A stretch of DNA of 39,498 nt, from the IMG/VR virus record IMGVR_UViG_3300049719_000112, positions 1 through 39,498 of that record. One strand, given 5' to 3'. Positions 6,095 through 39,498 of the stretch are shown here, piece after piece. Source of the stretch: a virus. The notes under the pieces are model-generated. The model was not told the DNA's origin, searched no databases, and saw only the letters and a program-made list of their open reading frames with translations. Position 1 is the stretch's first letter. The number at the start of each line of letters is the position of its first letter. A program made the translations under genes and the position numbers.

Positions 6095-7194
6095 ACGCAC
6101 AGGCCGAATCCCTGAAAGCACCATTCCCCTGGTTTGGTGGGAAGTCACGTTGCGCCGATGAAGTCTGGACCGCGCTCGGGCCGGTGGCCAACTACGTCGA
6201 GCCCTTCGCGGGCTCGCTGGCCGTCCTGCTCATGCGACCGGACTACGGCTGGCAGACGGGAGCAGAGACGGTGAACGATGCGGACTCGTTCTTGAGTAAC
6301 TTCTGGCGTGCGCTATCGGCGGACCCGGAGCAAGTGGCGCACTATGCGGACTGGCCGGTCAACGAGACTGATTTGCTCGCCCGTCACATCTGGCTGGTGA
6401 ACACCGGGCGCGAGCGAATTGCGAAGATGGAGAGCGACCCGGACTTCTTCGACGCTAAGGTGGCGGGTTGGTGGGTGTGGGGCATCAATTCCTGGATTGG
6501 CTCAGGCTGGTGCGTTGGAAAGGGGCCGTGGGGAATCGTCAACGGAAAAGTTGAGAAAAACGGCGGCCAGGGCGTCAACCGCAAGCGCCCGCACTTGGGC
6601 GACGCAGGCCAGGGCGTCAACCGCAAGCGCCCACACTTGGGCGACGCAGTCCAGGGCGTCAAAAGCCAGCGCCCGCACCTTGGCGGAGGCCAGGGCGTCA
6701 ACCGCCAGCTCCCGCACTTGGGCAGCCGAGATCAAGGTGGACAACTAAGACCAAATCCGCAGCTTCAAGATTATTTCCTTGCGCTGGCCGATCGCCTGCG
6801 CCGCGTGCGCGTCTGCTGCGGCGACTGGTCAAGGGTTGTCACCACGGGCGCTCTATCATTCGGTGACTCGGTTGGAATATTCTTAGACCCTCCCTACCTC
6901 GGCGATGTCCGTAGCAAAAACCTCTACCGGGTTGACGACCACAACCTGAGCAACATCGTTCGAGAGTGGGCGATAGCCAACGGCGGCAACAAGAGATACC
7001 GGATCGTGCTTGCGGGATACGAAGATGAACACGCGATGAAGATGCCCGACTCATGGCGCAAGCATGCATACACGGCCAACCGCGCCTACGGAACAAGCAC
7101 CAATGCAGACAGTGATAACAACTCAAACCGGCACAATGAGCGGCTGTGGTATTCGCCGCATTGCCTCAACCCCGAGCCGGAACTGTTCGCATGA
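6091..7194 (+). CDS. D12-class DNA N6-adenine methyltransferase
   Basis: 367 aa. It transfers methyl from S-adenosylmethionine to adenine N6 in DNA. AdoMet-binding N-terminus: PFPWFGGKSR (11-20) and YVEPFAGSLAVLL (35-47). The catalytic motif DPPY is at 266-269, and the C-terminal NERLWYSPHC is typical of phage Dam-like enzymes. Between them, residues about 159-212 are four tandem copies of a 13-14-residue unit (GQGVNRKRPHLGDA), placed where the target-recognition or an insertion domain would sit. ATG 6091 overlaps the upstream mini-gene stop. Probably protects phage DNA from host restriction or regulates phage functions; the recognition site is not readable from sequence. Confidence 0.9.
   Translation: MNAQAESLKAPFPWFGGKSRCADEVWTALGPVANYVEPFAGSLAVLLMRPDYGWQTGAETVNDADSFLSNFWRALSADPEQVAHYADWPVNETDLLARHIWLVNTGRERIAKMESDPDFFDAKVAGWWVWGINSWIGSGWCVGKGPWGIVNGKVEKNGGQGVNRKRPHLGDAGQGVNRKRPHLGDAVQGVKSQRPHLGGGQGVNRQLPHLGSRDQGGQLRPNPQLQDYFLALADRLRRVRVCCGDWSRVVTTGALSFGDSVGIFLDPPYLGDVRSKNLYRVDDHNLSNIVREWAIANGGNKRYRIVLAGYEDEHAMKMPDSWRKHAYTANRAYGTSTNADSDNNSNRHNERLWYSPHCLNPEPELFA
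6565..6726 (+). repeat. In-frame tandem repeat inside the methylase gene (42/42/39/39 nt)
   Basis: Units start at 6565, 6607, 6649 and 6688 and each begins G(G/T)CCAGGGCGTCAA. Units 1 and 2 are nearly identical at DNA level. The length always stays a multiple of three, so copy number could change without breaking the frame. Encodes (G/V)QGV-x4-RPHLG-type peptides rich in Arg, His and Gln. Confidence 0.9.
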
Positions 7195-7763: not shown

Positions 7764-9371
7764 ATGCCCAAGAATCAGAAAGGCAAACGGCGGGCCGGCG
7801 AAGTTGACCGGCTTCCTCCCCACAACATCGAAGCCGAGCAGGGAGTGCTGGGTTGCATCCTGCTATCGCCCAAATCCTGCATGAGCGAGGTATTGGTGCG
7901 CGTCAAGGATTGGCCGGTGTTTTTTGACCTGCGGCACGAGACCATCTTCAAGTGCATGGCCACGCTGCACCGCGCCGGAAAGCCCATTGAGCTGATTGGG
8001 CTGCTCGATGAGTTGCGCAGAACCGGTCACCTGGAAGAGATTGGTGGCGTCGCCTATCTGTCGTCGATCACTGACGCCGTGCCGTCCTCGGCCAACCTGG
8101 GTTACTTCCTCGACATCCTCCTGGAGCACTACCGTCGACGCAAGATCATCTCGACCTTCACGGAAATCTCAGCCCGGGTTTATGACCACCAGGGCGACAT
8201 TGACGAGCTGCTCTATGCCACACGATCGGACCTGGCTATGGTCATGGATTCGGGCGATGGCAAGGAAGAAGTGTGGACCGTGGACGAGCTTTCCGCATTC
8301 GACTTTGAGCACGACCCGAATGCCGTCATCGGGTTCCGAAACGGCATGGCCACGCGCTTTCTCTGCCGCGGATATAGCGCCTGGCTCATCGGACAATCGG
8401 GCATCGGCAAGAGCAGCATCCTCACCCAATGGGCCATCAAGCTGGCCTGCGGCAAGGATTTCTGTGGTATCCTGAGCAACACCCCGCGTCGGGTTGGAAT
8501 TATCCAGGCCGAAAATGATATGGGCGATACGGCCGAGTTCACGCAGGGCATCCTGCGCTCGCTCAGCATCGGTGAGTTCGACGCTGAGAAGGAATACATG
8601 CTGGTGAAGCGCAACCTCGTAATCATTACTGAGCGGCAGACCGTCGGGGAACAGTTCTGCTCCTTCCTGGAGCGGATGATCGGCAAATACGAGATGGAGA
8701 TTGTGTTCGCTGACCCGTTCCTGTCGTTCGCCGCCGTGGACGTTACCCGATTAAGCGACTGCAGCCGATTTCTGCGCCAGCAGGTCAACCCAGTCCTGCA
8801 CCGCACAGGAGCCATTTTGATCTGCGCGCACCATAGCGGTAAGCCCAAGTTCGAAAAGGGGCTCAGAACCCCGTCAGCGCTCGATTACGCCTACGCGGGC
8901 ATCGGCTCGTCTGAGCTGGTCAACTGGGCCCGGGCCGTCATGGTGTTATTGCCGGTTGGCAACGATGGCATCAATTACGAGCTGAAGATCTGCAAGCGGG
9001 GCGGTCGGGCCGGCGCGCTGAGCTTGGCCGGCGAGGAAACCACGTCTGTTTTCCTGAAGCATTCGGCAGATCGTGTGTTCTGGGAGCAGACTACACCACC
9101 GCAGGAAGAGGAAGAGCGGGCGCCCAAAGAGCCACGCAAAACCATCATTGACCAGATCGTTGCGGCCAACACGCACGAGGTCATCAGCCGGATACCAGAC
9201 GAGGGTGAAACCAAAAACAGCCTGGGACAGCGCCTGCACGAGTGGGCAACCCGCGAAGGCATCGTCTGCGGCCTTACCAAGTGCAAGGAAGCGCTGTCCA
9301 CCCTGTCGAGCAACAGAGTGGGCAAGCTGTCGTATAGGGGAGGACTCTACTTTAAGGGGGTAAACGCATGA
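7764..9371 (+). CDS. Replicative helicase: DnaB N-terminal domain joined to a RepA-like RecA ATPase
   Basis: 535 aa. Residues about 14-160 match the DnaB N-terminal domain (RLPPHNIEAEQGVLGCILLSP … GVAYLSSITDAVPSSANL). The motor is RepA/AAA_25-like rather than standard DnaB: Walker A GQSGIGKSS (210-218), QAEND (248-252), Walker B VFADPFLSF (about 314-322) and ICAHHSGKPK (353-362). Residues about 430-460 are an acidic linker. The last 90 form a winged-helix-like tail (NSLGQRLHEWATREGIVCGL). It should form a hexamer that unwinds DNA at the phage fork. The candidate origin lies directly downstream. Confidence 0.85.
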   Translation: MPKNQKGKRRAGEVDRLPPHNIEAEQGVLGCILLSPKSCMSEVLVRVKDWPVFFDLRHETIFKCMATLHRAGKPIELIGLLDELRRTGHLEEIGGVAYLSSITDAVPSSANLGYFLDILLEHYRRRKIISTFTEISARVYDHQGDIDELLYATRSDLAMVMDSGDGKEEVWTVDELSAFDFEHDPNAVIGFRNGMATRFLCRGYSAWLIGQSGIGKSSILTQWAIKLACGKDFCGILSNTPRRVGIIQAENDMGDTAEFTQGILRSLSIGEFDAEKEYMLVKRNLVIITERQTVGEQFCSFLERMIGKYEMEIVFADPFLSFAAVDVTRLSDCSRFLRQQVNPVLHRTGAILICAHHSGKPKFEKGLRTPSALDYAYAGIGSSELVNWARAVMVLLPVGNDGINYELKICKRGGRAGALSLAGEETTSVFLKHSADRVFWEQTTPPQEEEERAPKEPRKTIIDQIVAANTHEVISRIPDEGETKNSLGQRLHEWATREGIVCGLTKCKEALSTLSSNRVGKLSYRGGLYFKGVNA

Positions 9372-9518
9372 TCATATACCCCCTGAGCTGTCAGGTTGTC
9401 AGGTTGTCAGTTAATACCAAACTGATAACACTGACAACTGATAACTTTGCCCAGTTGTCAGGTTGTCAGTTTGACCTGTTTTTGGAGACTGACAACCTGA
9501 CAACTACCCCCCCTGTCA

Positions 9519-9572
9519 GGTTGTCAGTCAGCTATCCCCCCCTACGGGGGGGAATAGGGCTGACTGACAACC
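9519..9572. repeat. 54-bp near-perfect cruciform in the iteron array
   Basis: Outer arms GGTTGTCAGTCAGC (9519-9532) and its exact complement (9559-9572) give 14 bp. Inside, seven C (9536-9542) face seven G (9546-9552) around a TAC loop, joined by a TAT/ATA step with a small bulge. It is by far the strongest palindrome I found in the window, and its arms are themselves iteron copies. No T-run follows, so it is not a normal terminator. Confidence 0.85.
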
Positions 9573-9601
9573 ATGAACAGGGAACCCCAAGCTGTCAGTT
9601 G

Positions 9602-9633
9602 TCAGTTGTCAGTTATGAGCGACTGACAACTGA
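9602..9633. repeat. 12-bp stem hairpin made of iteron copies
   Basis: TCAGTTGTCAGT (9602-9613) is exactly complementary to ACTGACAACTGA (9622-9633), with an 8-nt loop. It sits at the right end of the array and pairs opposite-facing repeats. Confidence 0.8.
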
Positions 9634-9637
9634 TAAC

Positions 9638-9928
9638 CTACCCATATGCCCCACAGGCCAGGAGGCCATACGCGCTATACCGCATCCTAGGTTCTCCCTG
9701 GGGGATATAGGGAGAGGAGGTTTCCGAACCGGTGAAAATATCTACTCCCAGGAAAAACTAAGAGCCCCAACGCAAGAGCGCCTTGCCACATTTCCGGCAC
9801 TTTTACCCCCGGGACCATACCTAGACACCCCCCAGGCCATCAAAACGCCCTATAAACGATTCCAGGCATGAATTCCTTAAGGTCGAATACGATCTATTGA
9901 GCGTCGCCGCCATGACGCCGATTGGCAC
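9638..9928. other. Non-coding stretch after the iteron array
   Basis: No convincing gene is seen. A weak hairpin, TCTCCCT…AGGGAGA around 9693-9714, lies inside a wider GGTTC…GAACC pair (about 9690-9730). The base composition is mixed and no clear promoter was identified. An open frame crosses this stretch from 9368, but its N-terminal part is only translated repeat (see rejected items). Confidence 0.5.
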
Positions 9929-10318
9929 ATGAAAATCCCCATCTCCTTCCCCGAACAGGAGCCCGAGCCCGAGCCGGTGGAAATCCAGGTCCGCTTCGAG
10001 CGCGACTGCGAGATGCTCGAATGGTTTGAGCGCGTCTGGCACATCCTCAACGCCTACCAATTGCGCCAGCGGGGTGAGCGGCAGCTCCGCATGAGCACCC
10101 GGGCGATGCAGTTGGCGCTGGGATTCCGTCTGGCGGCCGGCGCGGACGGCCCGGCGGCGCTGGCGCGCAACTGCGGCGTAACCAAACAGGCGATGAACAA
10201 TTGCCTGCGCCATTTTATCGAACAGCTTCAGCTCACGCCATTGCCTGGCCAGCGTCGGGCTGAAGCTCGAAAACACATGGCCGAGGCAAGATTAAATCAA
10301 CTGAAAGTAAAACAATGA
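9929..10318 (+). CDS. Predicted HTH DNA-binding protein
   Basis: 129 aa. N-terminal Pro/Glu-rich segment (EQEPEPEPVE), a helical middle, then a helix-turn-helix-like element ALARNCGVTKQAMNNCLRHF at about residues 75-96 and a basic tail. The ATG at 9929 has no strong Shine-Dalgarno. Its stop overlaps the next ATG (10315). First gene after the candidate origin, so a regulator of the downstream operon or an origin-binding protein are both reasonable guesses. Confidence 0.6.
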   Translation: MKIPISFPEQEPEPEPVEIQVRFERDCEMLEWFERVWHILNAYQLRQRGERQLRMSTRAMQLALGFRLAAGADGPAALARNCGVTKQAMNNCLRHFIEQLQLTPLPGQRRAEARKHMAEARLNQLKVKQ

Positions 10319-10920
10319 AAACCAAAAGTAAAACAATTAAAACCAAACTTGAGATGACCTACAACGAGCGCGCGATGCAGCTCGAACATAAAGCTGACAA
10401 GGCCTTACTGGCCGGAATCGCCCGCGACTGGTCTGCCGTGGAGGCCGCGGCGCAGTCGGCGGGGAAACAGACCATCATCGGCATCAACAAGATGCGGGCC
10501 TGCGGTGAGAAATTGAAACAGCTCGCCGGCCATGAGCAGATCAACGCCGATTTCTTTCAGAGCGTGACGCTGTCGCTCCCGGCCAGCATGAGCTACACCG
10601 GGGCCCGCGGCGCCGTCCACATCTCGAACCGAATCGAGAAGGACGTCAAGACGGTGCAGGAGGCCGTCGCGGTGCAAAAGGAACTGTTCGCCGCCGTGGG
10701 CGACTTCAAGGAGCCGAAGCGCCTGGTGGAGCAGACCGCGCACGAGAGCAACCACTGGGACAGTTTCGTCAGCATCGGCCAGTCGTTCTCCAATCTGTTA
10801 ACTGAGCTGGAGAAATCCGCGACCATGGAAAAGTGGGAGCGGGAAAAGCTGGAGCGCTTTGTCGCCACGACCAAGCCGATTTCGGACAAGCACAACGCGG
10901 CGGTGGAGCTGCTCAAGTAA
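10315..10920 (+). CDS. Hypothetical helical protein
   Basis: 201 aa, nearly all helix with a Lys-rich start (MKTKSKTIKTK). The section IGINKMRACGEKLKQLAG … FQSVTLSLPASMSYTGARGAVHI loosely recalls DUF3102-type phage/plasmid proteins, but not enough to assign it. The C-terminal half is amphipathic helix with coiled-coil character. Overlaps the upstream HTH gene by 4 nt, so the two are probably co-translated. Confidence 0.55.
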   Translation: MKTKSKTIKTKLEMTYNERAMQLEHKADKALLAGIARDWSAVEAAAQSAGKQTIIGINKMRACGEKLKQLAGHEQINADFFQSVTLSLPASMSYTGARGAVHISNRIEKDVKTVQEAVAVQKELFAAVGDFKEPKRLVEQTAHESNHWDSFVSIGQSFSNLLTELEKSATMEKWEREKLERFVATTKPISDKHNAAVELLK

Positions 10921-10930
10921 GGGGGCCAGC

Positions 10931-11167
10931 ATGGACAACTACCTTTTGCTTGGGGCCTGGATCGTCGTGGGAATTGATTCACTCATACCCGTTACGGTTC
11001 TGCTGTTAATGTTTTATCGGGCGTTAAGTCAAGACTGGAAACTCACGGCTCTGCTAATGGGATTGGCAGTGTTCGTGCTCCTGTTCGCAGCGTCCTTAGC
11101 TTATCTTTTTAATCACGATTGGGTCTTCCCACAGGCACCCATCACAGCGGAGGAGCCAGCAAAGTGA
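10931..11167 (+). CDS. Two-segment membrane protein, copy A of a paralogous pair
   Basis: 78 aa with two membrane segments (about 3-28 and 38-62). It is clearly related to the 77-aa product at 11752: both have GAWIVVGI near the N-terminus, a central charged DWK, an LA/YLA-type second segment and an (I/V)TAEE tail. GGGG lies a few bases before ATG 10931. The two copies flank the likely small-terminase gene. A holin-like or superinfection role is possible but unproven. Confidence 0.65.
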   Translation: MDNYLLLGAWIVVGIDSLIPVTVLLLMFYRALSQDWKLTALLMGLAVFVLLFAASLAYLFNHDWVFPQAPITAEEPAK

Positions 11168-39181: not shown

Positions 39182-39498
39182 ATGAAAATTCAGATCAAAT
39201 CAATTTTGGGCACCGTTCTCTTTGAGGGAGATTTTACTGCGCTTTTGGACGCCGTAATGGCTGCCGTAAAACGGGGCGCAAACCTCCGGGGCGCAGACCT
39301 CCAGAGCGCAGACCTCTGGGGCGCAAACCTCCGGGGCGCAGACCTCTGGGGCGCAGACCTCCAGAGCGCAGACCTCCAGAGCGCAGACCTCTGGGGCGCA
39401 AACCTCCGGGGCGCAGACCTCCAGAGCGCAGACCTCCGGGGCGCAGACCTCCGTGGCGCAAACCTCCGGAGCGCAAACCTCCAGAGCGCAAACCTCCA
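39182..39498 (+). CDS. Pentapeptide-repeat protein, N-terminal part (truncated by window edge)
   Basis: At least 105 aa, open to the edge. The start MKIQIKSILGTVLFEGDF … LLDAVMAAVKRGANL is the usual N-terminus of phage-type pentapeptide proteins. From about residue 32 come continuous A(D/N)LxxA(D/N)L repeats (ADLQSADLWGANLRGADL), which fold as a right-handed quadrilateral beta-helix. No Shine-Dalgarno; ACGACAACAA is duplicated just before the ATG. The C-terminal tail of this type appears at bases 1-83. Confidence 0.85.
   Translation, partial: MKIQIKSILGTVLFEGDFTALLDAVMAAVKRGANLRGADLQSADLWGANLRGADLWGADLQSADLQSADLWGANLRGADLQSADLRGADLRGANLRSANLQSANL

Follow-up and report, generated by a model that had tools for sequence, protein, structure and literature searches.

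A TGTCAG iteron field directly after a RepA/DnaB-like helicase gene as the probable replication origin of a tailed phage

We believe that the dense TGTCAG array described here is a phage replication origin whose iterons are bound by the helicase encoded upstream of it, most likely through a C-terminal DNA-binding domain of that helicase. We would put the probability of this reading at roughly three in four. The array lies in an IMG/VR record of a linear virus, and by the window we mean all 39,498 bp of it, with genes for recombination, replication, packaging, head and tail on the plus strand. For the window we infer both the origin function and the self-recognition by the helicase. A sequence-only reading of this DNA had left the choice between an origin and a partition site. 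The position of the array and the comparison with many other phages argue for the origin. The partition site is not supported: the window proteins that were searched yielded no par gene, and one phage after another has its array behind the replicative helicase. The features under discussion are collected in Table 1.

Table 1. Features of the window around the iteron field, with the statistics available for each.
Feature	Position	Strand	Details
Replicative helicase, DnaB N-terminal domain and RepA-like AAA_25 ATPase	7764..9371	+	PF00772 E 1.6e-24; PF13481 E 2.5e-13
Iteron field	9389..9637	both	15 TGTCAG (10+, 5-) and 3 TTATCAG; consensus RGTTGTCAGK
A+T-rich stretch within the field, candidate unwinding region	9411..9452		
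Perfect inverted repeat	9453..9505		18-nt arms with two iterons each, 17-nt loop; z -6.7
Hairpin	9487-9529		z -8.6
54-bp cruciform	9519..9572		C7/G7 hairpin CCCCCCCTACGGGGGGG between inverted iterons; DNA fold -23.9 kcal/mol, z -9.1
Hairpin	9597..9638		two 7-bp-phased iterons against one iteron and one TTATCAG variant; z -8.0
129-aa protein, possible helix-turn-helix	9929..10318	+	ALARNCGVTKQAMNNCLRHF, read by eye; alternative binder of the array

The field starts 17 bp past the helicase stop. A recount returned the 15 exact copies claimed earlier, ten forward and five reverse, between 9389 and 9628, and minus-strand TTATCAG variants at 9422, 9438 and 9630 carry the field to about 9637. Another 17 copies are dispersed through the window. 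Two hundred first-order Markov sequences of the same length held at most 4 copies per 249 bp, the mean of their maxima being 1.9. No hexamer in the window clusters more densely than TGTCAG; the runner-up is ACCTCC, with 12 copies in a tandem repeat of 15-bp units that closes the contig. That repeat (39272-39497, about 15 copies of CGGGGCGCAGACCTC) reaches the last letters of the record and may be what caused the assembly to stop there. Two other repeats lie in or between genes: a 42-bp in-frame repeat of about four GQGVNRKRPHLGDA-like units in a predicted DNA methyltransferase gene (6565-6723), and a 21-bp direct repeat, AAAGTAAAACAATGAAAACCA, across the junction of the 129-aa and 201-aa genes (10304-10347).

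Successive TGTCAG copies are spaced by 8, 8, 26, 25, 8, 25, 8, 17, 8, 42, 29, 7, 7 and 16 bp. The 7- or 8-bp phasing that had been described is therefore true inside groups of copies but not across the whole field, where gaps run up to 42 bp. The short, changing phase, which had seemed unusual, is real; equivalent arrays of other phages share it, and it is therefore no oddity of this one. The 54-bp cruciform and the strong hairpins formed by opposite copies were found as proposed, in the form of four hairpins with z scores from -6.7 to -9.1. The most A+T-rich part of the field is at 9400-9449, with 36% GC against about 58% overall. A GC-skew switch had also been proposed at 9.4-9.6 kb, and no clear switch is seen there. 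Searches of Rfam and for tRNAs gave no match, the array DNA used as a similarity query against phages and plasmids gave only chance-level matches, and the 39.5-kb window contains no DnaA box of the form TTWTNCACA.

An open frame of 167 codons (9368-9871) begins at an ATGA overlap with the helicase stop and runs over the entire repeat field, and a frame like it appeared in 3 of 2000 shuffles. Its codon-usage score is -0.10, below the window background, while three neighbouring genes score +0.15 to +0.32; its GC3 is 0.53 versus 0.74-0.83 in neighbouring genes; it matches no family; and the TGTCAG copies occupy all three reading frames across it. For these reasons the frame is probably not translated. 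The sequence-only reading had named translation of the stretch as grounds for giving up its interpretation, and the codon signature this would leave is absent. We are dealing with a short unit present in 15 + 3 copies within a compact 249 bp that bears no coding signature.

The case for an origin comes from this position and from other phages. A pattern of two 8-bp-phased copies opposite an inverted pair, which makes no use of the helicase, was scanned for in 2.9 million viral contigs. It matched a single contig (L125/L126), where the array lies immediately 3' of a gene for a prim-pol and RepA-type helicase. Follow-up phages were then fetched by helicase similarity alone. Just past the helicase gene are arrays of TGTCCG in Vibrio 1.076.O, TGTCCC in MW202867, TTATAC in CRP-831, TGTCAC in Rhizobium 16-3 and Rhizobium X2_25 (12 copies in X2_25), TGTACC in Idiomarina 1N2-2, TGAACC in Alteromonas PB15 (13 copies) and CTGGAA in CRP-406. 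In 1.076.O, MW202867, CRP-831, 16-3 and 1N2-2 no hexamer cluster in the 5-7 kb locus is denser than the one that begins no more than about 60 bp from the helicase stop. The TGTCCC array and hairpin of MW202711 (L140:5696-5816) lie 1.5 kb downstream of the helicase, from which they are separated by a block of small minus-strand genes that were apparently inserted. Among 67 relatives of the CRP-831 helicase the mean best hexamer count is 7.5 per 350 bp after the stop, against 3.1 upstream of the gene and, for the highest-scoring window within it, 4.1.

A blind set was picked with peptides from the core of the Vibrio 1.076.O helicase only and dereplicated to 19 phages. An array of one hexamer in both orientations follows 16 of these 19 RepA-type helicases, starting 4-38 bp past the stop. 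These arrays reach the floor of the shuffle test (p=0.005), and in the controls an array was found upstream of the gene in 1 of 16 cases and inside the gene in 0 of 19. The word itself varies between phages (TGTCCC, TTCGGT and CATCCG are examples), and within one phage all copies are replaced together while the layout is kept, as is seen when the arrays are compared side by side. Iterons at the stop come first in the shared layout, then an A+T-rich stretch, then opposite iterons and last the inverted iterons around CCCTTTAGGG or CCTATAGG; the 54-bp cruciform of the window is the apparent counterpart of these hairpins. In 50 of 68 arrays inverted iterons flank a hairpin whose arms measure at least 6. 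Hairpins of such size appear in 46% of shuffled arrays if iterons are not required, so the case for the hairpin rests on its recurring CTATAG/CTTTAG core and not on the count. We considered TGT as a universal core of the words (TGTCAG, TGTCCC, TGTATA, TGTCAC, TGTACC, TGTCCG) and dropped it, since ATCGTA, TAGGAC, CATCCG and others do not contain it. A search of related phages for conserved repeats beside DnaB/RepA genes had been suggested as a check; arrays are at that position in those 16 of 19, with a word that differs between phages, and there are phages with no array.

It is important to realize that these exceptions exist. No array directly follows the RepA-type gene of Caulobacter GB2A, Coryne phi673, Rhodococcus Jflix2, Mycobacterium Baka, a Salmonella element, Arthrobacter Pitbull or Microcystis JY30; several of these seven are from Actinobacteria. 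The apparent hexamer cluster of Mycobacterium Hashim76 falls within coding sequence. Few helicases share the DnaB-N and AAA_25 layout of the window, and they are mixed: Vibrio 1.076.O has the array, L234 does not, and Vibrio 1.123.O (L127:2329-2574) has eight copies of CCGCGA upstream of the helicase operon in a divergent intergenic region and none after the helicase. This mixed pattern, the array-less RepA-type phages, the displaced array of MW202711 and the absent GC-skew switch all count against the origin reading.

The hexamer appears to co-evolve with the DNA-reading tail of the helicase, judging from one subfamily of relatives. Among 45 non-redundant relatives, pairs with the same hexamer have more similar C-terminal domains at equal ATPase identity than pairs whose hexamers differ. 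Hexamer identity tracks a 29-residue helix-turn-helix segment of the C-terminal winged helix. With the N-terminal part, the ATPase, the helix-1/linker and the wing controlled, the partial Mantel value is 0.32 (p=0.001). Controlling for the downstream gene gives 0.38, and dereplicating at 85% gives 0.21 (p=0.006). The downstream gene gives -0.12 and the ATPase about -0.1, and the wing gives 0.15 (p=0.007), a signal lost after dereplication. No positive partial signal comes from the helix-1/linker segment, which is near the array, or from the downstream gene on its other side, and this argues against mere linkage. Some residual linkage may nevertheless contribute, as this is one subfamily and the segment adjoins the array. 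The co-varying columns of the C-terminus cluster at L144 residues 685-709, in helix 2 and the start of helix 3; many top co-varying columns are also in the N-terminal region of the helicase. The C-terminal domain of the relatives is predicted to be a winged helix with pLDDT 90. A Foldseek search with it gave no match at E<0.001 and its VIA-align rows are mostly winged-helix folds at Z of about 7-8, so the call rests on the topology of a confident model together with middling matches.

The strongest competitor, although we think it unlikely, is an origin that is read by an initiator other than the helicase, for instance the 129-aa protein encoded at 9929, and to which the helicase comes later, in the style of lambda O/P or RSF1010 RepC/RepA. 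That protein is the product of the next gene and has a plausible helix-turn-helix by eye. DnaB-type helicases of the classical sort depend on another protein as initiator or loader, and the window helicase has a DnaB N-terminal domain. Its last 80 or so residues are a possible winged helix, with no family match and no profile match to the domain of the relatives in hhalign, and the AlphaFold model of the helicase alone is poor (pLDDT 35). This lack of detectable homology, with the poor model, counts against self-recognition. On the other side, the protein at 9929 matches nothing in Pfam or PHROG, and in the relatives the hexamer follows the helix-turn-helix segment of the helicase and not the downstream gene. 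These comparative data lead us to favour the helicase as the binder. The lineage of the phage is almost unsampled in the sequences searched, because searches of viral contigs with the window's own helicase or terminase gave either no relative or one of just 26% identity. In phage records the helicase has distant relatives: the match of best coverage spans two thirds of the protein at about 27% identity, and about 30% is reached across 40% of its length.

If the helicase is indeed the binder, the origin would work as follows. The product of the adjacent upstream gene, the replicative helicase, would bind the TGTCAG iterons, most likely by its C-terminal domain, and several subunits would collect on the dense, oppositely oriented copies. 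The A+T-rich stretch would then open, perhaps aided by extrusion of the iteron hairpins, and a helicase ring would load on the exposed strand. The C/G hairpin between inverted iterons could serve as a structural signal, for example as a start for primase or for positioning two rings.

Parts of this arrangement are familiar from other replicons. The lambda origin has iterons of about 18 bp for the O protein inside the initiator gene O, and its DnaB comes from the host; the likeness to the window is in having iterons and an A+T-rich segment near replication genes. In P4 the short type I iterons of ori1 and crr are read by the C-terminal domain of the primase-helicase alpha. Alpha belongs to another helicase family, however, and we know of no dense two-strand field of P4 iterons right after the gene. 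RepA of RSF1010 is the best-studied helicase of the RepA class, to which the AAA_25 domain of the window helicase is similar. The RSF1010 oriV combines iterons with single-strand priming hairpins, and its iterons are about 20 bp long and are read by a separate protein, RepC. The window differs in its units of 6-9 bp with spacings of 7-8 bp in groups, units which in the relatives track the helicase's own C-terminus. The roles of RepC and RepA are covered in PMC4234260. The same paper describes a structured origin just 3' of the replication gene in the Sulfolobus plasmid pRN1 and in phage BIP-1, and a C-terminal winged helix in the pRN1 replication protein. The pRN1 origin differs in being one 100-bp stem-loop without iterons, and its helicase is SF3.

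In its logic the proposed origin follows the rep/ori module of SaPI, with SCCmec Cch2 beside it, and also pRN1. The section of PMC7581432 that cites Ubeda et al. 2007 describes a SaPI origin with short iterons directly downstream of the initiator-helicase gene, recognised by the C-terminal domain of the helicase, and the same source gives AAGTG as the iteron of SCCmec Cch2. The window array likewise sits directly downstream of a helicase gene, and the co-variation that suggests a similar C-terminal reading was seen in one relative subfamily. SaPI-type helicases are DUF927-type (MCM-like) or D5-type (SF3) primase-helicases, whereas the window protein, with PF00772 and PF13481, is a RecA-fold, RepA/DnaB-like one; the window also differs in being a tailed phage with many copies in both orientations and a recurring hairpin. 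Since the motor is of the RepA/DnaB-like RecA-fold class, the window array is not a member of the SaPI or pRN1 families. Our search of the open literature turned up the SaPI, SCCmec and pRN1 precedents. It gave no description of an array after RepA-type phage helicases, nor apparently of how general the arrangement is across such phages, a silence that speaks only weakly for novelty.

Three further explanations do not need an origin at all, and we consider each improbable. The least so is a field of operators, promoters or terminators for the downstream genes. The array does sit between an early gene and the next gene, and there is one terminator-like site at 9459-9478. Such sites are not clearly above shuffles, though, there is no sigma-70-like promoter in 9200-10000, and the copy number and the tracking of the helicase helix-turn-helix in relatives fit an initiator better. 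A packaging site (cosB/pac-like) bound by the small terminase subunit is more doubtful still. The window carries a gpA-type terminase, and in five other phage contigs (L315, L318-L321) a terS-like gene with a helix-turn-helix at the N-terminus is immediately preceded by GTTGTCAGGTTGTCAG-type repeats. In the window, however, terS starts at 11119, about 1.5 kb from the array, with no TGTCAG cluster within 1 kb of it, and the equivalent arrays of many phages come after the helicase. In L315, L318, L319, L320 and L321 the GTTGTCAGGTTGTCAGT repeats directly upstream of the terS-like gene, whose product begins with a helix-turn-helix, are possibly a TerS-binding (cosB-like) site that uses the same word; a search with the longer GTTGTCAGGTTGTCAGT pattern found no helicase locus among its matches.

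The word TGTCAG is not diagnostic by itself, since more than 100 viral contigs contain its triple-copy pattern, for the most part in simple tandem runs that have nothing to do with helicases. The inverted pattern occurs at 8 sites in bacterial genomes, none beside recognisable replication genes. Inverted TGTCAG pairs form palindromic intergenic elements in unrelated bacteria (L130, L131, L133, L134 and L137, from Clostridia, Chloroflexi and Propionispira among others). A mobile or selfish short tandem repeat, like the heptanucleotide repeats that cyanobacteria carry, could have inserted between two genes without serving the phage. This would fit the three-copy runs with their 7-8 bp period and the inverted arrays in scattered bacterial intergenic regions, but we find it as doubtful as packaging, because most other runs are short and of one orientation while the window has 15 copies in mixed orientation with several hairpins, and because the position after the helicase recurs with unrelated hexamers.

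The wider claim is one on which we would give even odds: that there is a large, unrecognised class of tailed-phage origins in which a RepA/DnaB-like helicase acts as its own initiator, with a C-terminal winged helix that reads a phage-specific hexamer repeated many times in both orientations right after its own gene, with no separate initiator or loader, and with hexamer and recognition helix switching together as a lock and key. If this is true, the origins of many uncultured phages could be located from sequence, by looking for a hexamer field just past the stop of a RepA-type helicase gene. RecA-fold replicative helicases are generally thought to need separate initiators or loaders; some of them would then be self-recognising, a convergence with SaPI Rep and P4 alpha. 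The natural, matched pairs of hexamer and recognition helix would be a data set for the code of DNA recognition by winged helices, and the pairing could explain replication compatibility between phages and satellites.
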